Shown here: piece by piece, positions 576 through 49,510 of the stretch
Layout of the letters: each line of letters begins with the position of its first letter
How positions within the stretch are numbered: the first letter of the stretch is position 1
Assembly (NCBI GenBank): GCA_021816775.1
Contig: JAKAXA010000002.1
Coordinates: 1 to 64,000, forward strand
DNA from: Pseudomonadota bacterium
Lineage (GTDB): Bacteria > Pseudomonadota > Gammaproteobacteria > Steroidobacterales > Steroidobacteraceae
Length of the DNA: 64,000 nt
Reading direction: 5' to 3'
Position numbers and translations under genes: made by a program
The notes under the pieces: model-generated
What the model was told of the DNA's origin: nothing
The model's input: the letters and a program-made list of their open reading frames with translations, nothing else
The model's database searches: none

Positions 576-1385
576 GTGGCCTTGGATAAACCGCTCAGCA
601 TCGAGGAGCTGGTCCGTGCCGGCTCCGTGCGCCGCGAACTGGCGCAGGCCCACCTGCGGGCCGAAGTGCGCCGGCGCGAGGAAGTGCTGCGACGCGCCGT
701 GCGGCGCTACGTCTCCCCGCAGCTCGCCGACAAGATCCTCGAGGACGTGCAGCTGCGCGAGACGCTGCTCTCGGCCGACGATCTGCGCACCCATGCGGTG
801 GTGCTGTTCGCGGACCTGCGCGGCTTCACGGGCCTGTCCGAGCGGCTCGAGCCGCGCCAGGTGGTCCCGCTCCTCAACGAATACTTCTCGCTGCTCACCG
901 AGATCACCCTGCGCCACGACGGCACGGTGTTCCACATGGCCGGTGACTGCCTGATGCTCGGCTTCGGAGTGCCGCTCGAGCAGCCCGACAGCCCCGGGCG
1001 CGCCGTGCGCGCCGCCCAGGAGATGCTCTCGAGCTTCGCGGCGCTGGCGGGCTCCTGGATGACCCGCTACGGCGTCGAGGCGGGCCTCGGCATCGGCATC
1101 AACGAGGGCGATGTGGTCGCCGGCAACATCGGCTCGAGCTCCTACATGAGCTACACGCTGATCGGGGACACGGTCAACGTCGCGGCCCGGCTCTGCCAGC
1201 GGGCCCGCGCCGGCGAGATGCTCTTCTCGCACAGCATCAAGCAGTCCCTCGATGCCCTCGGGGTGGATGTGGGCGCGACGCCCCTGCCGCCGATGCAATT
1301 GCGCGGCCGCAGCCGTACCATTGACATTTTCTGCGTACCCGCCGCACCGCGGGTCCAGGTCACGGAAGTTCCGGTCGCAGTTTGA
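576..1385 (+). CDS. Class III adenylate/guanylate cyclase catalytic-domain protein
   Basis: This 269-residue protein has an N-terminal helical segment (about residues 1-60, including the 'YVSPQLADKIL' linker typical of bacterial class III cyclases) and one catalytic domain. The first metal Asp is D80 in 'FADLRGFT' and the second is D124 in 'AGDCLML'. The transition-state pair is N201 and R205 in 'GDTVNVAARL'. The Lys that normally contacts the purine, four residues before the second Asp, is His120 here, so substrate choice is uncertain. No transmembrane segment or sensor domain is visible. The start is GTG at 576. The stop codon overlaps the TTG start of mfd (TTGA), so the two are probably cotranscribed. 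The product would be cAMP or another cyclic nucleotide. Confidence 0.85.
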   Translation: MALDKPLSIEELVRAGSVRRELAQAHLRAEVRRREEVLRRAVRRYVSPQLADKILEDVQLRETLLSADDLRTHAVVLFADLRGFTGLSERLEPRQVVPLLNEYFSLLTEITLRHDGTVFHMAGDCLMLGFGVPLEQPDSPGRAVRAAQEMLSSFAALAGSWMTRYGVEAGLGIGINEGDVVAGNIGSSSYMSYTLIGDTVNVAARLCQRARAGEMLFSHSIKQSLDALGVDVGATPLPPMQLRGRSRTIDIFCVPAAPRVQVTEVPVAV

Positions 1386-4300
1386 GTGTCTTAAATCCGC
1401 CCGTTCCGGGCCCCGCCAGGCGTCACCTGCGCTGGCAGCATCTGCGCGGCAGCGCCGCGTCGCTCGCGCTCGCCGAAGCGGCCCGCTCGGACCAGAAGCT
1501 CTACGTCGTGGTCACCGATGCGGCGCGGGAGCTTGCGCGCCTGACCGCCGAGCTCGGCTTCTTCGCCGGAGCCGATGTGCCGCTGCTGACCTTCCCCGAC
1601 TGGGAAGTCCTGCCGTACGACCTGTTCTCGCCCCACCCCGACATCATCTCCGCGCGAGTGCGCACGCTCTATGAGCTGCCGCGCCTCACACACGGCTGCC
1701 TGATCGTCGCGGCCGATACGCTCATGCAGCGCCTGCCGCCCCGGCAGTACGTGCAGGCGCGCGCCTTCCAGCTCTCGCGCGGGGAGCGGCTCGACCTGGT
1801 GCCGTTGCGCGCGCGCCTCGTCGACGCCGGCTACGCGAGCGTGAGCCAGGTGCGCAGCCCCGGGGAGTTTGCCGTGCGCGGCTCGCTGTTCGACGTGTTC
1901 CCGATGGGCGCCGCCGAGCCGCTGCGCATCGACCTGTTCGACGATGAGATCGAGGCGATCCGCCGCTTCGACCCGGACACGCAGCGCTCGCTCGAGCCGA
2001 TCGAGCAGGTGCGGCTGCTGCCGGCGCGCGAAGTGCCGCTCGATGCCGAGGCGGTCAAGGAGTTCCGCCGGCGCTTCCGCATCCGCTTCGAGGGCGACCC
2101 GACCCGCTCGAGCCTGTACCGCAGCGTCAGTGAGGGACTGGCGCCGGCGGGCCTGGAGTTCTACCTGCCGCTGTTTTTCGAGGCGACCGCGACGCTGTTC
2201 GATCACCTGCCGGCCAATGCCGTGATCGTGCGCGATGCGGCCCTGCCCGAGGCCCTTGCGCGCGCCTGGCGGGACATCGAATCCCGCTATGAGGAGCGAC
2301 GGCATGACATCGAGCGCCCGGTGCTTGCGCCGGCGGAGCTGTTCCTCGAGCCCGCCGCGCTCGATGCCGCGCTCGCGCGCTTCGCCTCGATCACACTCGC
2401 CGGCGAAGCCGAGGCGGCGCAGGCCACGCCGGGCCGCGACTTCGCCACGCTCGAGCCGCCGCAGCTGCGCATCGACACGCGCGCCGAGCGGCCGCTCGAG
2501 CCGCTGGAGGGCTTTCTCGAGTCCTTCGCCGGCCGCGCGCTGATTGCGGCCGACTCGCCCGGCCGGCGCGAAGTGCTGCACGAGCTGCTGCGCACGCACG
2601 GCCACGCCGTCGAGCGGGTCGGCGGCTGGGATGCCTTCCTCGCCGGCCGCGCGCCGCTCAGCCTCACCGTGGCGGCGGATCTGTCCGGCCTCTGCCTTAC
2701 CGCACCGCCGCTTGCGATCATTGCCGAGTCGCAGCTGTTCGGCGCGCGGGCGCCGCAGGAGCGGCGCCGCGCCCGCGCGGCCGCCGATCCGGAGGCGATT
2801 CTGCGCGACCTGCAGGACCTCACCCCCGGGGCCCCGGTGGTGCACGAGCAGTACGGCGTCGGCCGCTACGTGGGACTGCAGCCGATGGAAGTCGCCGGCG
2901 AGGCCGGGGAGTTCCTGGTGCTGCAGTACCTGGGCGGCGATCGGATCTACGTCCCGGTGCAGTCGCTGCACCTCGTGACCCGCTACACGGGAGCGGCGAG
3001 CGAGAGCGCACCGCTGCACAAGCTCGGCACCGATCAGTGGGCCAGGGCGCGCCGGCGCGCCGCCGAGCAGATCCGCGACGTGGCCGCGGAGCTGCTTGAC
3101 CTGTACGCGCGGCGCAAGGCGCAGCGCGGATTGAAGCTCGCCTTCAGCGAACCGGACTACCGCACGTTCGCGGCCGCCTTCCCCTTCGATGAGACCGTCG
3201 ATCAGGCCGAGGCCATCGCCCAGGTGCTCGCTGACCTGAAGAGCGATCGGCCCATGGACCGCATCGTGTGCGGGGACGTCGGCTTCGGCAAGACCGAAGT
3301 GGCCATGCGCGCGGCGTTCGCGGCGGTGCAGTCGGGCAAGCAGGTCGCGGTGCTCGCCCCGACCACCCTCCTCGCGCAGCAGCACCTGACGAATTTCCGC
3401 GACCGCTTCGCGGACTGGCCGGTGCGCATCGAGGGGCTCTCTCGCTTCGGCAACGCCAAGGAGACGCGTGCGACGCTCGAGGGCATCGGGCACGGCGCGG
3501 TGGACATTGTGGTTGCAACCCACCGGCTGCTGCATGCGCACGCGCGCTTCAAGGACCTGGGGTTGCTGATCGTGGACGAGGAGCAACGCTTCGGGGTGCG
3601 CGACAAGGAACGCCTGCAGGCGCTGCGCGCCAACGTGCACGTGCTCACTCTCACCGCCACACCGATCCCGCGCACGCTCAACATGGCTCTCGGCGGCCTG
3701 CGCGATCTGTCGCTCATCACCACGCCTCCGGCGGAGCGTCTGGCGATCAAGACCTTTGTCATCGAGTGGCACGGGCCGACGGTGCGCGAGGCGGCGCTGC
3801 GCGAGCTGCGCCGCGGCGGACAGATCTACTTCGTGCACAACGAGATCCGCACCATCGAGAAGATCGCCGCCGAGGTGCGCCAGCTCGTTCCCGAGGCGAG
3901 CGTGCGCATCGGCCACGGGCAGATGCGCGAGCGGGACCTCGAGCAGCTGATGGTCGACTTCTACCACCGGCGCTTCGATCTGCTGCTGTGCACGACCATC
4001 ATCGAGAGCGGCATCGACGTGCCCACCGCCAACACCATCATCATCAACCGCGCCGATCACATGGGACTGGCGCAGCTGCACCAGCTGCGCGGACGGGTCG
4101 GGCGCTCGCATCACCGCGCCTACGCCTACCTCATTGCCCCGCCGCGGCGCGCCCTGAGCGCCGATGCCGCCAAGCGCCTCGAGGCGATCGAGTCGATGGA
4201 GGAGCTCGGCGCCGGCTTCGCGCTCGCCACGCATGACCTGGAGATCCGCGGCGCGGGCGAGCTGCTCGGGGAGGCTCAAAGCGGACAGATGTCGGAGATC

Positions 4301-4834
4301 GGACTGGCGCTCTACCTTGACCTGCTCGAGGAGGCGGTCGCGGCGCTGAAGGCGGGGCGCGAGCCAGTGCTCGATCGGCCGCTCGCTGCGGCCACCGAGG
4401 TGGAGCTGCGCCTGCCGGCGTTTCTGCCCGAGGCGTACATTGCCGACGTGCAGGTGCGCCTCGGGCTGTACAAGCGCATCGCCGCCGCCGAGGACGCCGA
4501 TGCGCTCGATGGGCTCACCGCCGAGCTCTATGACCGCTTCGGCGCGCTGCCCGCGCCGGCGCAGCGCCTCATCCGCATCACCAAGCTGAAGCTGACCGCG
4601 CGTGCCCTCGGCATCCGCCGCCTCGACCTCGGTCCGCAGGGCGGCATGGTGCTGTTCGAGGAAAGCACCGCGGTGCAGCCGCAGAGCCTGATCAAGCTGA
4701 TACAGCACGCCCCGCGCGAGTACCGCCTGGAAGGGGCGATGAAGCTGCGCATCTCGCGCGTGCTGCCCGATGAGGAGGCGCGCTTCGAATTCGCCGCCGC
4801 GCTGATGAGGCGCCTTGCGGGCAAGCCGAATTAG
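1382..4834 (+). CDS. mfd: Transcription-repair coupling factor Mfd
   Basis: The 1150-residue protein matches the usual Mfd length (about 1150). Mfd is a DNA translocase that removes RNA polymerase stalled at lesions and recruits UvrA. The N-terminal third is the UvrB-like region. A CarD-like RNA polymerase-interacting domain lies near residues 480-550 ('VVHEQYGVGRYVGL'). The RecG-type helicase core follows, with Walker A 'GDVGFGKT' (Lys at about 637), the 'DEEQ' box at about 732 and 'TATPIPRTLNMAL' after it. The C-terminal domain ends near 1150. The start is TTG, overlapping the cyclase stop by 4 bp; no better in-frame start with a ribosome site is seen. Confidence 0.97.
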   Translation: MSVLNPPVPGPARRHLRWQHLRGSAASLALAEAARSDQKLYVVVTDAARELARLTAELGFFAGADVPLLTFPDWEVLPYDLFSPHPDIISARVRTLYELPRLTHGCLIVAADTLMQRLPPRQYVQARAFQLSRGERLDLVPLRARLVDAGYASVSQVRSPGEFAVRGSLFDVFPMGAAEPLRIDLFDDEIEAIRRFDPDTQRSLEPIEQVRLLPAREVPLDAEAVKEFRRRFRIRFEGDPTRSSLYRSVSEGLAPAGLEFYLPLFFEATATLFDHLPANAVIVRDAALPEALARAWRDIESRYEERRHDIERPVLAPAELFLEPAALDAALARFASITLAGEAEAAQATPGRDFATLEPPQLRIDTRAERPLEPLEGFLESFAGRALIAADSPGRREVLHELLRTHGHAVERVGGWDAFLAGRAPLSLTVAADLSGLCLTAPPLAIIAESQLFGARAPQERRRARAAADPEAILRDLQDLTPGAPVVHEQYGVGRYVGLQPMEVAGEAGEFLVLQYLGGDRIYVPVQSLHLVTRYTGAASESAPLHKLGTDQWARARRRAAEQIRDVAAELLDLYARRKAQRGLKLAFSEPDYRTFAAAFPFDETVDQAEAIAQVLADLKSDRPMDRIVCGDVGFGKTEVAMRAAFAAVQSGKQVAVLAPTTLLAQQHLTNFRDRFADWPVRIEGLSRFGNAKETRATLEGIGHGAVDIVVATHRLLHAHARFKDLGLLIVDEEQRFGVRDKERLQALRANVHVLTLTATPIPRTLNMALGGLRDLSLITTPPAERLAIKTFVIEWHGPTVREAALRELRRGGQIYFVHNEIRTIEKIAAEVRQLVPEASVRIGHGQMRERDLEQLMVDFYHRRFDLLLCTTIIESGIDVPTANTIIINRADHMGLAQLHQLRGRVGRSHHRAYAYLIAPPRRALSADAAKRLEAIESMEELGAGFALATHDLEIRGAGELLGEAQSGQMSEIGLALYLDLLEEAVAALKAGREPVLDRPLAAATEVELRLPAFLPEAYIADVQVRLGLYKRIAAAEDADALDGLTAELYDRFGALPAPAQRLIRITKLKLTARALGIRRLDLGPQGGMVLFEESTAVQPQSLIKLIQHAPREYRLEGAMKLRISRVLPDEEARFEFAAALMRRLAGKPN

Positions 4835-4846
4835 GGCCTCATCGTT

Positions 4847-4858
4847 TACACTGGCGGC
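4847..4858 (+). promoter_or_regulatory. Possible -10 box immediately before csiV (candidate leaderless start)
   Basis: TACACT at 4847-4852 is followed by six bases and then the ATG of csiV. No Shine-Dalgarno sequence is visible. If this -10 is used, transcription would begin at about the A of the ATG. No recognisable -35 was found, so this is suggestive only. Confidence 0.35.
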
Positions 4859-5587
4859 ATGAGGCATCGAATCGCAACGACTCTTGCCCTGCTTGCGGCC
4901 CTCGCCCTCGGCGCCCTCTCGCCGGCGCGGGCCGCGAACACCCCGCCGCTGACGGCGCATCCGGGAATCCAGGCCCATCCGGCCCAGGCAGGCGCCGCGC
5001 AAGCCGCCCCGAGCGCTCCCGGCGCCGCAGCCGCGCCGCAGCGCGTGCACCGCGAGTACTACATCGAGATCATCGTGTTCCGCGCGCTCCAGGCGCTCGG
5101 CAGCCCCGAGGACTGGCAGGCCGAGCTGCACATGGCGCCGAGCGTCAGCGGCGCGGAGAGCCCGACCGGCACCGGGGTCGGGCACCTGGTGAAGATGGTG
5201 CCCCCGTCGGGCTACAAGCTCACCCCGATCTGGAATGCGTTGAGGGGCAGCAAGACCTATGAGCCGGTGGCGCACGTGGCGTGGATCCAGACCGCGAGCG
5301 ACTGGGGCACGCACGCGGGATTCGATCTGAGCGAGCTCGGGGTTCACGTGCCGGGACTGCGCGGCCTCGTGTACTTCGAGCGCGGCGAGTACCTGCACCT
5401 CGGGCTCACACTCGATTACACCATGCAGCACCCCCCGAGGGGGCTCGATGCCCCACCCGGCACGACGTTCGTGATGAACGAGACCCGCCGGGTGCGCTTC
5501 TATCAGCGCAACTACTATGACCATCCGGCCTTCGGGGTCATCGCGCTCGTGCTGCCGGTGCGCGGCACACACATGCCGGGGCAGTAA
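4859..5587 (+). CDS. csiV: CsiV family protein, exported
   Basis: This 242-residue protein has a signal peptide (residues 1 to about 26, 'LSPARAA' at the cleavage region). A Pro/Ala-rich linker of about 35 residues precedes the conserved domain, which starts at 'YYIEIIVFRA'. The domain ends with strands such as 'LVYFERGEYLHLGL', 'RRVRFYQRNYYDHPAFGVI' and 'LPVRG', the CsiV signature. In Vibrio cholerae CsiV is a periplasmic activator of a class A penicillin-binding protein. Location next to mfd is also known from other gammaproteobacteria and supports the call. It starts 24 bp after the mfd stop with no ribosome site; see the -10-like box just upstream. Confidence 0.8.
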   Translation: MRHRIATTLALLAALALGALSPARAANTPPLTAHPGIQAHPAQAGAAQAAPSAPGAAAAPQRVHREYYIEIIVFRALQALGSPEDWQAELHMAPSVSGAESPTGTGVGHLVKMVPPSGYKLTPIWNALRGSKTYEPVAHVAWIQTASDWGTHAGFDLSELGVHVPGLRGLVYFERGEYLHLGLTLDYTMQHPPRGLDAPPGTTFVMNETRRVRFYQRNYYDHPAFGVIALVLPVRGTHMPGQ

Positions 5588-5626
5588 TCTCGGCACACGG
5601 CAGCCGCGGGCGATGAGGGCGCGGGA

Positions 5627-5972
5627 TTAGGGTCGGTATCCGCGCAGGCCCTGCACAGCGCCAGTGACAATTTGTTGCCTGACACCCCGTCGTGCCCTGT
5701 CTGTCTGGCGTGCCGCAGCCGCTTCGCTCCGGCGAGCAGACCCGCGGCTGCATCTGCAACGGCGGCGCCGCAGCACCTCGGCCTCACGCATCGCGGCACG
5801 CTTTTCTGCGTTGGGAATATCGATCTCAAACGGGAAACGACCGTCCGTGGCGCTGTGCACCAGCCGCATGCGCGCCGCATCGCCGAAGGAGATTCCGTCC
5901 GCGCTCGATGCCTGCGCGGCGCAAGCCGTTAGGTTCTCGTCCGCGCGCGCGGACCACGGTGATCCTGGGCAT
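5627..5972 (-). pseudogene. Decayed RelB/DinJ-family antitoxin, orphan
   Basis: On the minus strand the sequence reads 'MPRITVVRAR', then after a frame change inside a CG run (about 5941-5951) continues as 'DENLTACAAQ', 'GISFGDAARMRLV' and 'GRFPFEIDIPNAEKRAAM'. This is the RelB/DinJ layout: an N-terminal ribbon strand, a helix pair and a C-terminal PFE-PNAE motif. A weak ribosome site (AAAGGG) precedes the ATG at 5972. After the domain the frame runs on with low-quality Arg-rich sequence to a stop at 5627. No RelE-type toxin follows, as csiV ends at 5587 on the other strand. It is a broken remnant of a toxin-antitoxin operon, unless the indel is a sequencing error. Confidence 0.6.
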
Positions 5973-6204
5973 CACGCAGCCCTTTCGGCCGAGACACGGG
6001 GTCCCTCAACCGCCTCGTGCCCGGAAGTCTCCGGGGGCTCGATTCTCGTCAGAATCTTCATAATATTTCTATTATTTTCAGATAGATACGACTGTATTCT
6101 GAGATTCGTTCCAACCCGGGGCTCGCGCCAACCGTTCCAGGCCGGCGCCCGCACCGCCCGTCAGCCGCCTGTCTGGCTGCGCTGCGGCACGTTGCCCGAG
6201 GTGC
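5973..6204. other. Intergenic stretch with an AT-rich patch
   Basis: No gene is seen here. Positions 6055-6100 are unusually A+T-rich for this genome and contain an imperfect inverted repeat around AATAATAGAAATATTAT (minus-strand reading). It would sit upstream of the RelB remnant and could be its old promoter/operator. This is inference only. Confidence 0.3.
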
Positions 6205-7370
6205 TCAGCGCCCGGCGAGCGCCTCCACCACCGGCAGGCGTTGTGCGCGCCGGGCGGAGGGCAATCCCACTGCCAGCGCGACCAGCAGCATCCCTCCGAG
6301 CCCTTCGAGCCAGACCTGCGCTCCGGGCTGCCCATAGGGGATGCCGAGGTGGTGCCACAGATACTGCAGCAGAGCCGCTCTGCCCGCCCACGCTGCCAAC
6401 AGGCCGACGAGCCCTCCAACCATGCAGACGATGGCCGACTCGGCGAGCAACAGCATCGAGACTCGCACGTTGCCGAAACCCACCGTCTTCAGCACGGCCC
6501 GCTCCGGGATGCGCTCAGCGAACCCCTGTGCCATCGTGTTCCCGGTCAGCAGCAGGAGTGTAAACAGCACCGCGCCCGTGACGGCGTGCACGATGAGGTT
6601 GACATCGGCGATGCGGGCGACGTACCGGGCCGATTCCGCGCGCGAGGTCAGCGTCCGGGTCGAATGAGCGGAATTGACCGACAGCGCATCGACGGTCCGG
6701 GCAATACGGCCGGCGGCGTGCGGGTCGGCGATCCGCTCGAGGTGGCGCCAACCGTGTTGCGTCCACGGGCGCGTGCCGCATTGAAATAGCGCCAGTGAAA
6801 AAACAGAGTGTTCTCCCGGTCGCGCCGCCGGGTCCGATAGATGCCGGTGAGGGCGAACGTCCAGACCTCCGAGCCGTCACGCTGCGGATCACCGACAGCG
6901 CGCAGCGCAATGTCCTCCCCGACCCTCCAGTGATTGCGCCGCGCGAGCGTCTCGCCGGCGAGCAGGCCGATGCGGGTGGCGAAGTACGCCCGCCACTCGG
7001 CGGCGGGCATCTGATAGCCCCGCAACACCCCGAACCCGCTCGCCGGCACCGCAAAGCCGCCCACCCAATGGCCGGGCCGCTGCCAGGTCGCAAAGAAAGG
7101 CGCGTTGAACGTCACACGCTGCACACCCGGCACGTGCTCGATTTGCCCGGTGAGGCTCAGCGGCAGGCCCTGCCCGCGCGAGGTCGAGACGGTGACGAGT
7201 CGATGCGCAGCGGAGATGCTCTGGCCGACGGTGGCAAATGCGTCGTCCACCGTCTGCAGCAGGCCAAACAGCGCGAATGCGGTCGCTACGGCGAGCAGGG
7301 TGAGCGCCGTTCGCCCCGTGCGCCTCGTCCATCCAGCCCAGAGCAGGGGCAGGAATCTCACGCGCGCCAC
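6205..7370 (-). pseudogene. FtsX/MacB-like ABC permease with an internal frameshift
   Basis: Two abutting frames together make one permease of about 388 residues, paralogous to the two genes 7375-8529 and 9869-11026. The first part (GTG at 7370) has the N-terminal membrane helix, 'GQSISAAHRLVTVS' and the extracytoplasmic domain down to 'HWRYFNAARARGRNTVG'. The reading frame then changes at 6741-6752 and resumes as 'HLERIADPHAAGRIARTVDA' and 'ALSVNSAHSTRTL'. The C-terminal FtsX domain follows ('LLLLTGNTMAQ', 'ERAVLKTVGF') and ends in 'VVEALAGR'. Both halves are otherwise intact, so this is a single one-base indel: either recent inactivation or an assembly error. It is the last gene of the export operon, 4 bp after its neighbour. 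Confidence 0.75.
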
Positions 7371-7374
7371 CGGC

Positions 7375-8529
7375 CTACAGGTTGCGCAATCCCTCCGTGA
7401 CCGACTGATGCGCGGCGCGCACGGCGGGCAGCACGCCGGCCACGAGGCCCACCAGCACCGCCAGGGCGAGTCCCTGCACCCAGATCAGCTGCGCCACGGG
7501 CGCGAGCGGTACATGCGGTCCCTGTCGCAGGTTCAAGCCGACCACCACGCCACGGGCGAGCGCGAGCCCGCAGAGCGCGCCGAGTACGAGCATGAGGACC
7601 GATTCGCCGAGCACGACCGCGAGAATCGCCTCACCGGTGAACCCTACGGTCTTCAGGATCGCCCACTCCGGTGTCCGTTCGCGCACCGCATACGCAATGG
7701 CATTGCCGCTCAGCAGCACCAGAGTGAAGAACACCGCGCCCATGATGCCGTACACGATGAGTCCGAGGTCGGCCACCTGCCGGACCGTGCGCGCCGCGAG
7801 CGCGCTCGAGAGCTGCGTCTTGGTCTCATGGCTGGAATTCGCCGACAGCGCATCGATGCGCCGCGCGATCTCGGTCGCCTGGCGGGTATGCGCGATGCGC
7901 TCGAGAAACGCATCGACCCGTCCGCGGTGCGCAGCGCGGCCCAGATCGAGGTCGCTCCAGTGCATGAGGATCGCGTTCTCCATGCCGCGCGGCTTGGAGG
8001 TGTAAAGACCGGCGATCAGGAACGTCCAGACCGCCGAGCCGTTGCGGCGCACGAAGCCCGGAGCGCGGATCGGGATCTGCTCACCGACCGTCCAGTGATA
8101 GCGCTTGGCCATCATGCGTCCGGCCAGGACCGCCATTTGCGTCCTCCGGTAGGCGCGCCACGCGGCCGGGGCGATGGTGTACTGCGGGAACACCCGAAAG
8201 TAACCCGGCCCGATCGCCTCGCCGCCCACCGGCTGCTGCAGCGACTGATACGTGCCGAAGAAGCCACTGACGTAACTCGCGGCCCGCACGCCGGGAACCG
8301 CGCGGATCTTCCCGTACAGCCCGACCGGCAGGCCCACCATGTAGCTGCCGCGCGTGAGCGTGACCAGCCGGTGCGCGGCCGCGGCGTTTCTGCCGACCGA
8401 AGTGAAGGCGCCGTAAACCGAGGCGAGCAGCCCAAAGAGCAGGAAGGCCGCCGCGATCGACACGATCGTGAGCACCGATCGGCCCTTGCGGCGAGTCAAT
8501 CCAGCCCACAGCAGGTGCGCGAACCTCAC
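7375..8529 (-). CDS. FtsX/MacB-like ABC transporter permease
   Basis: This 384-residue inner-membrane protein has one N-terminal helix (about 18-40), a large extracytoplasmic domain (about 45-255) and three C-terminal helices (about 270-375) with the FtsX-domain motif 'RERTPEWAILKTVGF'. It begins with GTG. It is close in length and sequence to the permeases at 6205-7370 and 9869-11026, so the three look like tandem duplicates. In the MacB/DevC/LolC group such permeases work with a LolD-like ATPase and often a membrane-fusion protein, and act by mechanotransmission rather than through a transmembrane pore. The substrate cannot be told from sequence. Confidence 0.85.
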   Translation of the reverse strand: MRFAHLLWAGLTRRKGRSVLTIVSIAAAFLLFGLLASVYGAFTSVGRNAAAAHRLVTLTRGSYMVGLPVGLYGKIRAVPGVRAASYVSGFFGTYQSLQQPVGGEAIGPGYFRVFPQYTIAPAAWRAYRRTQMAVLAGRMMAKRYHWTVGEQIPIRAPGFVRRNGSAVWTFLIAGLYTSKPRGMENAILMHWSDLDLGRAAHRGRVDAFLERIAHTRQATEIARRIDALSANSSHETKTQLSSALAARTVRQVADLGLIVYGIMGAVFFTLVLLSGNAIAYAVRERTPEWAILKTVGFTGEAILAVVLGESVLMLVLGALCGLALARGVVVGLNLRQGPHVPLAPVAQLIWVQGLALAVLVGLVAGVLPAVRAAHQSVTEGLRNL

Positions 8530-44925: not shown

Positions 44926-45462
44926 GTGTGCGCATCGGACCCGGAAGATGACCGGCGGCTGTTCCGCGAGGCGGTCCGCGGCGTCAAGCCGCTCGAGCGT
45001 CCTGCCACGCTGAGCGAGCGGCCCAAGCCCGCCCCCGCGGCGCGCTTCACGCGCGCCGATCGGCTGGCGGTGCTCGAAGAGAGCCTGAGCGGGAGCGGGT
45101 CGCCCGATCCGGCGCTCGCCGCCGGGGACGAGCTGGTCTTCCGGCGCGAGGGAGTCCCGCTCGAGGTCCTGCGCCGGCTGCGCCGCGGCGAGTACCGGGT
45201 GCAGGCCGAGCTCGACCTGCACGGCCTGACGGTTCAGGACGCCAGGCGGGCCCTGCGCGAGTTCCTGGGCGAGGCCCTGCTGCGACACTGGCGCTGCGTG
45301 CGGATCATCCACGGCAAGGGGCTGCGCTCGGGTCACCGCGGGCCGGTCCTCAAGGGCCTGGTCGCCGCCGTGCTGCGCCGGCTCTCGCCGGTGGTCGCGT
45401 ACGTCTCGGCGCGGGCGGTCGATGGCGGCACCGGGGCCATCTACGTGCTGCTTTCCTCGTAA
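44926..45462 (+). CDS. Smr-domain protein
   Basis: The protein has 178 residues. The first 85 are charged and probably extended. The Smr domain (about 95-178) carries '[19 protein letters not shown]' and '[20 protein letters not shown]'. The LDxHG and HGxG motifs are those of small MutS-related endonucleases such as SmrA and SmrB; SmrB cleaves mRNA at collided ribosomes. The layout (N-tail plus one Smr domain) fits SmrA/SmrB, but I cannot tell which. Its last 22 bp overlap the end of the convergent truD gene. Confidence 0.88.
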
Positions 45463-46532
45463 TCGGCGAGCGTGAACAGCTCGCGCAGCACCGCCGTCGC
45501 ATAGGCCCCGCGCGCGAGGCGAAACTCCAGCACCACCGCCCCGGGCTCGATCCGGGCACTGAGCTCGTGCACCGCGACCCGCAGACTGCGCCGCTCCTGG
45601 CGCAGCCCGGCGGCCTCGAGCAGTGCGCAGTACTGCGGATACTGCCCCGCCACTCGCTCCTCGAGCGCGCGCACGGCGCCCTGCGAGTCTGGCGCGCCGC
45701 GCCCCCACAGCGGCCCGCTGGGGTGAATCTCGAGCCGCGCGGCCCGCTCGCGCAGCGTCGCATCACAGGCCTCGACCGCGAAATGGCTGCCGCGGCCCTC
45801 GAGCATCGCGCGGTCCCCCGGCTCGAGCTCGGCCCAGCGGCCCTCGTGCACCCGTTCGGCCAGCACCGCGTTGAACATCAGGCTGCGCGCGGCCGAGAGC
45901 ACGAACCCGCGCTCCGCGGGGCGCAGCCCGCGTGGATCGAGCTCCCCCCGCTCGAGGTTCGCGCCGCCGCGCCCGAAGCGCTGCGGTCCGAAATAACTGG
46001 GGACGCCGCGCTCGGCGATCCGGCGCACCCGCTCCTCGAGCCGCTCCTCGGGCGGCGTCTCCCCGCGCGCGCGGATGCGAAAGCGGTTGCCCTCCAGCGC
46101 CCCGCGCGGCAGCTTGCGCGTGTGTGCGTGGGCGGCGAGCACCTCGAAGCCCTCCCCGCGCGCTCCTGCCCAATCCTCGGGCGCGCGCCGCCCGCGCGGC
46201 GCCGAGAACCACTGCACCGCCACGGCACGCCGGTCCTTCAGTCCGGCGTAACCCATCTCGGACGGCCGGCAGCCGGCGAGCTTGGCCAGCTCGCGCGCCA
46301 CCCAGACGGTATTGGCATCGCGCTTGCGCACCTGCAGGAGCACGTGCGCCCCGGCGCCCGCGGGCGCGAACCCGAGGGACTCCTCGACGCAGAAGTCCTC
46401 GGGCTCGGTCCGCACGCTCACCTCCCCCAGCGGCAGACCGTGCGCCCGTGGCGGCGCGAACGCCGCCTCAGGACGCATCCGGCTCCCCGCCCCTGCAGGA
46501 GGCGGCCGGTTGCGCTCAGCGCCCCCCATCAT
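45441..46532 (-). CDS. truD: tRNA pseudouridine(13) synthase TruD
   Basis: The protein has 363 residues. TruD converts U13 of several tRNAs to pseudouridine. The catalytic Asp100 lies in 'MGYAGLKDRRAVAVQWFS'. 'ANTVWVARELAKLAG' and 'GVPSYFGPQRFGRGGANLERG' (in pieces) are further family hallmarks, and 'RSLMFNAVLAERV' follows. A GAGGGG ribosome site precedes the ATGATG at 46532; a later Met at 46478 is the alternative start. It overlaps the upstream amidase gene by 17 bp and the convergent Smr gene by 22 bp. Confidence 0.94.
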   Translation of the reverse strand: MMGGAERNRPPPAGAGSRMRPEAAFAPPRAHGLPLGEVSVRTEPEDFCVEESLGFAPAGAGAHVLLQVRKRDANTVWVARELAKLAGCRPSEMGYAGLKDRRAVAVQWFSAPRGRRAPEDWAGARGEGFEVLAAHAHTRKLPRGALEGNRFRIRARGETPPEERLEERVRRIAERGVPSYFGPQRFGRGGANLERGELDPRGLRPAERGFVLSAARSLMFNAVLAERVHEGRWAELEPGDRAMLEGRGSHFAVEACDATLRERAARLEIHPSGPLWGRGAPDSQGAVRALEERVAGQYPQYCALLEAAGLRQERRSLRVAVHELSARIEPGAVVLEFRLARGAYATAVLRELFTLADYEESST

Positions 46533-48072
46533 CGCCCCTCAGAAGATCGCAGTGCCGCGCATCCGACACGGCGCTCACGGCGTTGGCCGTGTTGGTGATG
46601 GTCCGCGAGTCGCAGAGCGGCTCACCCCGGCTGCGGCGCTCGAACTCGTCGTGCTGCGAGCCGGACATGCCGGAGTGGCCGAGGAAGTTGAAGCTGGGGT
46701 CGAACTCGAGCGTGTCCTCGGACTGCACCCGGTCGCTCAGCGCCCAGCCGGCCGCGGCGGGCCAGGCGGGCGCGGAGCGCGCCGCGTAATGCTGCAGCAC
46801 GGTGGTCGTGATGGCAAAGTCCCCGTTCGCCTGCTGCACCTGATCGTAGTTGAGCATCAGCGGGAAGCTCCAGCTGCGCACGCGGGTGCTGCCGTCCTCA
46901 CCGCCGTCGCTCACGCGGGTCACGGTCCGCACCGTGCTCGCGAGCGCGATCTGCTGGTCGTAGACGGTGTTGTTGATGGTGAAGTTCTGGCTGTTGCTGA
47001 AGTGCAGCTCCTGCGCCACCGCTGTCCAGCGCGGGCCGCCGGGCAGATCGAGATAGCCGACCAGGCGCGTGCGCACATCGGAGCGGACGGCCACCGAGCC
47101 GCTCACCTCGCCCGAGGCGCCGCCCGCGAGGTCGGAGGTGATGCTCGGGGCGAGCGGCGGCACGTCGACCTCGGTGACCGCCCCGCCGATCGCGCTCACG
47201 CGCGGGTCCTGGTACACGAGCAGGTTTGCCGCGACCGAGAAGTAATTGCCGTCGTTGTACACGCTCACGGCGATCGTATGCGGCTGGCCGTTGTCGAGCT
47301 CCGCCAGCAGCGGCGTCAGATTCACCCGGTAGGGGATGAAGTTCAGCGTCTGCACCCCGGGGGTGGGCTGCCAGAGGAACGGGTCGATGCCCCCGGTGTA
47401 GATCCACGGCGAGACCGGCGCATAGGCCACCGTGCGCCCGTCCAACTGCACCATCACCTGGTGGTAGCCGCTGTTGCCGCAGCTCTCGAGCTCGTTCGCG
47501 TACTCACTTGGCACGCAGGTGTACCAGAACTCATCGCCGATCTGGCTCTGCGCCGTGATCACGAGGTCCATGCGCGTCATGTTGGTCGGGAAGACGAACG
47601 TCCCGGCGAGCGACTGCGAGGCCGAATCGAGGTCACTCGGCTGATTGCCGCTGTTCAGCGGATAGACTGCGGACGGCTCCGCGGCGGCATCATCGCCGGC
47701 GTGCCTGCCGCGCGCCCGCGCGCCCGGGTAGAAATAAAGATAGCCGCTGCCGTGGATCACGCCCGTGTAAATGCTGTTGACGATGTTGAAGATGCTCGCC
47801 GCGCCCGCGTGCGGCGCGGCGTTGCCGAGAAACACGTAGGCGGTGCGGTCGTACTGCACGCCCGGGTTCTCGTTGAAATGCGCCACGAACACCACCTTCG
47901 CCCACGGGCCCGGGCAGTCGGCCGGCGGGCTGTAGGTGAAGGGCCGGGGCGCATAGTTGTCGAAGGTATCGGACTGAAAGAGCGTGACGATGCACGGCCG
48001 GGTGGGCGGGTGCGAGACCAGCAGGTCGGCGGTGGCGACGTTCTGCTGGCCGATCGCCGGGGCAGGCGGCAT
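46516..48072 (-). CDS. PNGase A-like peptide N-glycosidase (amidase A family)
   Basis: The protein has 518 residues from the first usable ATG. It matches the PNGase A family known from plants, fungi and some bacteria. Hallmarks are 'PCIVTLFQSDTFDNYAP', 'WAKVVFVAHFNENPGVQYDR' (one strand then another), 'YVFLGNAAP', and the jelly-roll second half with 'TPLLAELDNGQPHTIAVSVYN'. Family members are secreted and release intact N-glycans from glycopeptides. No signal peptide is present at this start. The upstream DNA encodes signal-like sequence in other frames plus an in-frame TAG (see findings), so export is uncertain. The gene sits between ispF and truD, where housekeeping genomes have none, and looks like an insertion. 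Confidence 0.78.
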   Translation of the reverse strand: MPPAPAIGQQNVATADLLVSHPPTRPCIVTLFQSDTFDNYAPRPFTYSPPADCPGPWAKVVFVAHFNENPGVQYDRTAYVFLGNAAPHAGAASIFNIVNSIYTGVIHGSGYLYFYPGARARGRHAGDDAAAEPSAVYPLNSGNQPSDLDSASQSLAGTFVFPTNMTRMDLVITAQSQIGDEFWYTCVPSEYANELESCGNSGYHQVMVQLDGRTVAYAPVSPWIYTGGIDPFLWQPTPGVQTLNFIPYRVNLTPLLAELDNGQPHTIAVSVYNDGNYFSVAANLLVYQDPRVSAIGGAVTEVDVPPLAPSITSDLAGGASGEVSGSVAVRSDVRTRLVGYLDLPGGPRWTAVAQELHFSNSQNFTINNTVYDQQIALASTVRTVTRVSDGGEDGSTRVRSWSFPLMLNYDQVQQANGDFAITTTVLQHYAARSAPAWPAAAGWALSDRVQSEDTLEFDPSFNFLGHSGMSGSQHDEFERRSRGEPLCDSRTITNTANAVSAVSDARHCDLLRGDDGGR

Positions 48073-48356
48073 GTTGAGCCCGCCCGAGCCCTATGCACGG
48101 CCCTGCGCTGCGGCAAGCGGCAGCAGGAGGCAAGCACCCCTGCGAGCAACGCGCCGCGCCAAATCGGGCGAATACCGGCATGAGGACCCCCTTGTTCGCG
48201 CGGGTCGCAAAGCCCCGGGGGCCGGCCCGCGTTCGTTTTAGGGTGAGCGCGCAATCGGCCGTAAAGCTAGCACGGCGCCCCGGCGCGGGGCAAAGGCCGC
48301 AACGGGCCGGGGGATTCACCCGCGCCGCGCCTCGGCACCCCGGGCGCCGGCGCCGC

Positions 48357-48833
48357 TCAGGGGCTCTCGAGCAGCAGCACGACCGCCTCGGCGGCAAGGC
48401 CCTCGGCACGCCCGAGAAACCCGAGCTGCTCGGTGGTGGTCGCCTTGACGTTGACCGCCTCCGCGGACACCTCGAGCAGCCCGGCGATGCGCGCGCGGAT
48501 CGCATCGCGGTAGGGACCCACCTTGGGCCGCTCGGCGATGAGGGTCAGATCGGCGTTGCCCACGCGCAGGCCCCGCTCGCGCAGCATCGCGAGCACCGCC
48601 TGCACGAAGCGGGCGCTGTCGGCGCCCTTCCAGCGCGGATCGGTGTCGCGGAAATGCTGCCCGATGTCCCCCAGCCCGGCGGCCCCGAGTAGCGCGTCGG
48701 TGAGGGCATGCAGCAGCACGTCGCCGTCGGAGTGCGCCAGCACACCGTGGGTGTGCGGCACGCGCACCCCGCCGAGCATGACATGCTCGCCGGGGCCGAA
48801 GGCATGCACATCGAAACCCGAGCCGACTCTCAT
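48357..48833 (-). CDS. ispF: 2-C-methyl-D-erythritol 2,4-cyclodiphosphate synthase
   Basis: The protein has 158 residues from ATG 48833. It forms the cyclic diphosphate of the MEP isoprenoid pathway. The zinc ligands Asp8 and His10 are in '[12 protein letters not shown]' and the third His is near 42. '[20 protein letters not shown]' and '[15 protein letters not shown]' (shown in part) are family signatures, and '[16 protein letters not shown]' is the C-terminal one. It overlaps ispD by 4 bp. The 284 bp downstream (48073-48356) hold only the disrupted amidase leader and a weak GC stem. Confidence 0.96.
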
Positions 48834-49510
48834 GCGAGCGCCTCCAGCAGTGCCGCGGCGAGCGTCAGATCCGCCGCGCGAGTGATTTTCAGATTCGCCG
48901 CCGAGGCGGCAACGAGCGCGGGCCGCTCGCCGAGCCACTCTACCGCCTGCGCCTCGTCGGTCGGGGTGCGGCCCGCCGCGTGCGCCTGATCGAGCGCCGC
49001 GCAGAGCAGCCCATAGCGGAACATCTGCGGCGTGAGGGCCCGCCACAGGCCGGTGCGGTCCACGGTCTCGACCACGCAGCCGGCCGCATCCGCGCGCTTG
49101 AGGGTATCGGCCGCCGGCGTCGCGAGCAGTCCGCCGACCGGGTGGCCGGCGAGCTCCGCCACCAGCCGCTCGAGATCCGCATCCGGCAGGCACGGCCGCG
49201 CCGCATCGTGCACCAACACCCAGTCCTGAGCCTGCGCGCGCGGCGCGAGCGCCGCGAGCGCGTTGCGCACCGAGTGGCTGCGCTCGGCGCCGCCGGGTGC
49301 GCTGAGCACTCCCGCCGGGGCGATCTCGCGCCAGTACGGATCGTCGGCCGCGAGCGCCACCATCGCCCCGGCGCAGCGCGCATCGCGCAAAAACGGCGCG
49401 AGCGCCCATTCGATGACGGTGCGCCCGCGCAGCGGCGCGTACTGCTTGGGGCGCTCAGCCCCGAACCGGCGGCCGATGCCGGCGGCGGGCATCACGAGCC
49501 AGTAATGCAT
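48830..49510 (-). CDS. ispD: 2-C-methyl-D-erythritol 4-phosphate cytidylyltransferase
   Basis: The protein has 226 residues, the normal length. It transfers CMP from CTP to methylerythritol phosphate. The N-terminal nucleotide loop is '[18 protein letters not shown]'. '[11 protein letters not shown]' and 'QMFRYGLL' are further conserved segments, with 'TDEAQAVEW' near the C-terminus. It lies 3 bp after ftsB and overlaps ispF. Confidence 0.95.

Follow-up and report, generated by a model that had tools for sequence, protein, structure and literature searches.

The closest described relatives of the gene analyzed here are bacterial homologues of PNGase A. Such enzymes are established: PNGase H+ of Terriglobus roseus has its optimum at pH 2.6 (PMC4231336), by March 2020 the count of known acidobacterial homologues had passed 70, and in a panel of 13 assayed enzymes that of Dyella japonica was the most useful and several members had negligible activity (PMC7348039). 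The first-pass annotation of this DNA had described the family as present in a few bacteria, which is out of date. For the jelly-roll enzymes of other families, PMC12753239 gives Asp60 and Glu206 as the catalytic residues of PNGase F and the equivalent pair for Ngly2.

We analyzed a stretch of 64,000 nucleotides from a Steroidobacteraceae genome, hereafter the window, in which a PNGase A-like open reading frame is located between ispF and truD. By descent this is an ordinary member of the PNGase A family, and the window adds no new activity. We consider it very likely that the gene is a secreted acid PNGase in the course of decay, most likely a pseudogene. The features of the locus are as follows.

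45441-46532, minus strand: truD, downstream flank (Pfam)
46516-48072, minus strand: PNGase A-like gene, very likely degenerate, with a frame open from a secondary ATG
47814-47822, minus strand: deletion junction with a short imperfect repeat (by eye); the missing part corresponds to residues 87-118 of the mature orthologue of genome G069
48070-48072, minus strand: ATG reported as the start, an Ile or Val codon in five intact orthologues
48073-48181, minus strand: remains of a signal-peptide-like leader, with an ATG at 48179-48181 out of frame with the gene body
48091-48093, minus strand: TAG in frame with the reported ATG and 21 nt upstream of it, which closes the old leader frame
48357-48842, minus strand: ispF, upstream flank (Pfam)

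The frame of 518 codons has exactly the boundaries given in the first-pass annotation, and its family assignment holds as well. The product matches the Pfam profile PF12222 (PNGaseA) with 114 bits against a curated cut-off of 25.3 (E 8e-33), which is not a chance match, and it is the sole PF12222 match in the 3.94-Mb genome. Pfam confirms ispF and truD on either side, and the gene is alone between them. The best-matching stretch extends over positions 108-323 of the 336 in the profile and is accompanied by a weaker second stretch; the three intact orthologues tested each match in a single stretch, from positions 24-29 to 321-333. The match of the window frame is split and partial because part of the domain is missing there. 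None of the three proteins tried against NCBIfam had a matching model.

At such G+C content, an open frame as long as this says little. A frame of 633 amino acids on the opposite strand (46282-48183, plus strand) covers the whole PNGase gene, and thus bare length is no evidence for a gene. The overlap between the truD and PNGase frames is probably an artefact of the rule by which frames were called, since truD proteins of relatives mostly align only from residue 13-20 or later, which would place the truD start near 46478. On the other side of truD, between it and surE, a Smr-domain gene (44926-45462, plus strand) runs against the direction of the cluster; it adjoins truD in most related loci that are long enough to show both.

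The 5' end of the window copy is damaged. The leader ATG lies 109 nt upstream of the reported ATG and is therefore out of frame with the gene body, whose own frame is interrupted by the TAG at 48091-48093. Judging from the alignment with the orthologues, the reported ATG is a former Ile or Val codon. All five intact orthologues at the same site (G069, loci L008/L032; G026, L009/L048; G024, L010/L047; G023, L012/L046; G020, L007/L011) open with basic residues and then, as judged by eye, have a hydrophobic stretch that closes on small residues; the conserved sequence GLN[IV]PPxPxIGQQNVA comes next. A usable export signal is absent from the window copy, its leader being out of frame and closed by the TAG.

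The second lesion is internal. Compared with the G069 orthologue, 96 nt (32 codons) are missing from the window copy between its residues 86 and 87. The missing stretch includes LYFGTTPEP......W.VERDVT.YSALL. In an alignment of 27 rows the block GTTxEP with its Trp is found in all 25 other homologues and is missing only from the window genome (G000) and from G067. Twenty relatives (20 of 23 loci, with L017, L021 and L027 left out) share 86 invariant columns, of which the window copy keeps 78; seven of the eight that are changed or deleted fall in the missing block, and the remaining one is an Arg to His replacement. PNGase Bb (PDB 9VLA) has the corresponding block GTTQEP...F...KDITRY, with Phe in place of Trp. 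In the model of an intact orthologue (mean pLDDT 78.7), residues 87-118 take in the larger part of strand 85-92 together with strand 102-108 and helix 110-116.

Both predicted structures resemble PNGase Bb. The model of the intact orthologue aligns with 9VLA over 501 residues (Z 32.1, rmsd 3.7), and that of the window protein (mean pLDDT 79.1) over 474 residues (Z 27.8, rmsd 4.0). Against PNGase F entries, other PNGase F-type chains and Ngly2 the intact model gives Z values of 15.6-15.9, 16.4-17.3 and 15.1, respectively; the corresponding values of the window model, taken from among the best 50 matches listed, which do not include 7ZGN, are 8.9-9.3, 7.6-8.7 and 9.8. The overall PNGase A fold predicted for the window protein indicates kinship, not function, because predictors tend to draw damaged members in the family fold.

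The blocks [YF]DR[TS] and GDEFWY are kept in the window copy, and the invariant residues D75, R76, D180 and E181 are present. By analogy with Asp60 and Glu206 of PNGase F, these blocks may hold the catalytic acids of the family; we found no paper on the catalytic residues of PNGase A enzymes. A search of the PDB with the family profile to E 10 returned only 9VLA and a chance-level sensor protein. The PF09113 profile matched neither the window genome nor any of 398 genomes of the phylum, a zero that is not proof of absence because no control genome matched either. What we take to be lost from the window copy is a conserved block and the leader; no loss of the catalytic acids is claimed. The first-pass annotation had named absence of the catalytic residues as what would speak against its reading. 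This outcome is borne out in part: seven invariant residues are deleted and the leader is broken, although the candidate acids are retained.

To place the gene in its taxonomic context, we compared 58 genomes of the genus, in 49 of which truD was found, the window genome included. The ispF-truD site is occupied in eight of them by the gene or a clear remnant (G000, G067, G069, G026, G024, G023, G020 and G029), empty in 39 and unreadable in two (G074 and G015). The gaps at the empty sites measure -89 to 206 nt by extrapolated ends; a tiny scar would escape. PF12222 occurs in 13 of the 58 genomes of the genus and in 13 of 217 genomes of the family, all of one genus out of 25. It was found in none of 23 genomes of the same order outside the genus, in one of 369 genomes of the class (the window genome itself) and in four of 398 genomes of the phylum, the window genome included, two of the others being from the same class. 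Vertical inheritance across the order, which the first-pass annotation had named as the outcome that would contradict transfer, thus fails, and this distribution supports the acquisition by transfer that it had proposed, at the level of the genus.

A tree built on 11 flanking proteins of 48 genomes places seven of the eight carriers in one clade with support 1.00; G020 was omitted for having too few aligned residues. The same clade includes the empty genomes G013 and G036, and the node that groups the carriers without these two has support of 0.11, so loss and never having had the gene are not separable for them. The gene tree (FastTree, with L093 left out and the G067 row carrying a non-homologous start of about 35 residues) pairs G024 with G020 and G026 with G023, and joins G069 to G000 and G067, with support of at least 0.95 at these nodes. 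These groupings are in keeping with descent along with the species after one gain at the ispF-truD site. The ispF-truD type stands beside L091, from another genus of the same class, on a long branch with support 0.81, and no donor is named.

Other PNGase A genes occur elsewhere in the genus. A second type is present at other places in G017, G033, G061, G062 and G063 (loci L039, L040, L041, L042 and L043); it nests among Acidobacteriaceae proteins, to which the G063 protein is up to 62.5% identical. The ispF-truD site was read as empty in three of these five genomes (G033, G061 and G063). G080 has a third kind, also elsewhere in its genome. The genus has therefore gained PNGase genes at least twice, probably three times. 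In G080 (L033, G080:C62:14000-28000), positions 878-8014 hold a GH92 mannosidase, a TonB-dependent receptor and the PNGase A-like gene in a row, which is likely a locus for the uptake and breakdown of N-glycans. A literature search for the sampling site of the relatives' MAGs found no paper.

Decay is also observed in two related species. In G067, the nearest relative (truD 91% identical), 433 codons remain, and the leader and everything 5' of the same junction are gone; 27 invariant columns are lost, two of them outside the missing part. The old ATG of G067 is out of frame with the body, and a TTG is in frame just upstream of what remains. In G029, the sister of intact G069 (support 1.00), the 431-nt gap between ispF and truD holds a scar (L084, 5533-6018) with the leader in one frame, a head of 39 residues in a second frame and a tail reduced to its last residues. 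The gene has thus been disabled in at least two lineages, probably in three, and five species keep the frame open. A deletion shared by G000 and G067 through their ancestor was considered, as the right edge of the missing block is the same in both. However, the imperfect repeat noted by eye could give the same edge without common descent, and the constraint since the split favors separate, later losses.

The tempo of evolution was compared between this gene, intact pairs and flanking genes. By NG86 the dN/dS of this gene in the G000-G067 pair is 0.35; nine flanking genes in the same pair range over 0.11-0.31, and three pairs of intact copies over 0.17-0.23. By YN00 no relaxation is detected: the value of 0.085 is on a par with those of two intact pairs (0.084 and 0.078) and lies inside the range of the flanking genes (0.044-0.109). 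The counts of amino-acid-changing versus silent codons, polarised with G069, are 31:21 on the G000 and G067 branches; intact copies have 70:94 (p 0.039, a weak difference), and 11 flanking genes together have 86:238 (p 7e-6). Changes since the split are distributed over the codon positions as 19/18/39, versus 40/42/39 expected at four-fold rates (p 0.0005 for third positions), and as 34/28/83 and 10/17/44 in intact pairs. All 433 codons common to G000 and G067 align without gaps. The body of the window gene is thus relaxed at most, by NG86 and the counts and not by YN00, and it is not neutral; therefore, the losses are probably recent. Either they are recent and separate, or some constraint is left.

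By the reading that we prefer, an ancestor within the genus would have gained a single gene, inserted between ispF and truD. Its intact descendants, predicted to fold into two jelly rolls and a C-terminal beta part, would be exported and, probably under acid conditions as in the family, would hydrolyze the amide bond between GlcNAc and Asn in N-glycoproteins. In the assembly of the window species the leader has been put out of frame and meets a stop codon, and an in-frame deletion of 96 nt has removed part of the first jelly roll together with the block kept in all other aligned relatives. The product, if any, would be cytoplasmic and most likely inactive.

The lesions of the window copy rest on one draft assembly of 90 contigs, and frame breaks such as those in its leader match sequencing errors in size. 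Together with the constraint on the gene body, this leaves room for assembly or sequencing errors in a species whose acid PNGase would be intact and secreted, as in its relatives. We regard this explanation as unlikely, since the deletion, the stop and the frame break would all need to be errors, and the sister species G067 also lacks the block and the leader, G029 being reduced to a scar. The constraint could instead mean that selection has kept a shortened, non-exported protein with the PNGase fold for a non-catalytic job in the cytoplasm, for example sugar binding. Since G000 and G067, neither of which has the block, diverged, codon positions 1 and 2 have changed about half as often as neutrality predicts; this rate, the gapless common codons, the YN00 ratio, the 78 of 86 invariant columns retained and the in-frame TTG of G067 agree with such a role. 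However, the old ATG of G067 is out of frame, the lesions of G000 and G067 differ, G029 has lost nearly everything, and recent, separate losses give the same pattern; thus we find a new role quite improbable. It is more improbable again that the reported frame encodes a working PNGase that is simply not exported: its PF12222 match and retained candidate acids are set against the deletion of seven residues invariant in 20 relatives, the removal from the modelled intact fold of a helix and a strand along with part of another strand, and the absence of a leader.

A decaying copy of a secreted PNGase thus remains the preferred reading, and the working glycoamidase proposed in the first-pass annotation is not borne out for the window copy. 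Its further suggestion that the bacterium uses the enzyme on eukaryotic glycoproteins, and the niche deduced from this, are left unsupported because this copy is probably non-functional. The case corrects a plausible annotation: a GC-rich gene that has lost its leader and a piece of its core still shows a frame of 500 codons and a strong family match, and the intact sister copies at the same site serve as controls. It also documents how a housekeeping cluster took up one cargo gene, which was passed on with the species and disabled more than once. The intact orthologues of G069, G026, G024, G023 and G020 are fresh candidates for acid PNGases.

Among known systems, PNGase F and zebrafish Ngly2 share the pair of jelly rolls (Z 15.1-17.3, over residues ~18-330 of the intact orthologue). 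They belong to other Pfam families, PF09112/PF09113 according to PMC12753239, and are unmatched by the family profile in the PDB to E 10. PNGase Bb, solved in complex with the MUXF glycopeptide (9VLA), has the same overall fold as the window and intact models. No other PDB chain falls below E 0.05 in sequence searches, in which PNGase Bb has E values of 2.3e-27 for the window protein and 2e-36 for an intact orthologue. It is 20-22% identical, and nothing in the window protein aligns with its residues 100-129. PNGase H+ of Terriglobus roseus and the 13-enzyme panel belong to the same homology family (PMC4231336, PMC7348039), and the G069 orthologue is ~35-42% identical to the aligned acidobacterial proteins. 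Unlike PNGase H+, the window copy has neither the GTTxEP block nor a usable leader, whereas the intact orthologues resemble it in their single-gene, apparently secreted character (leader by eye) and in their conserved blocks.
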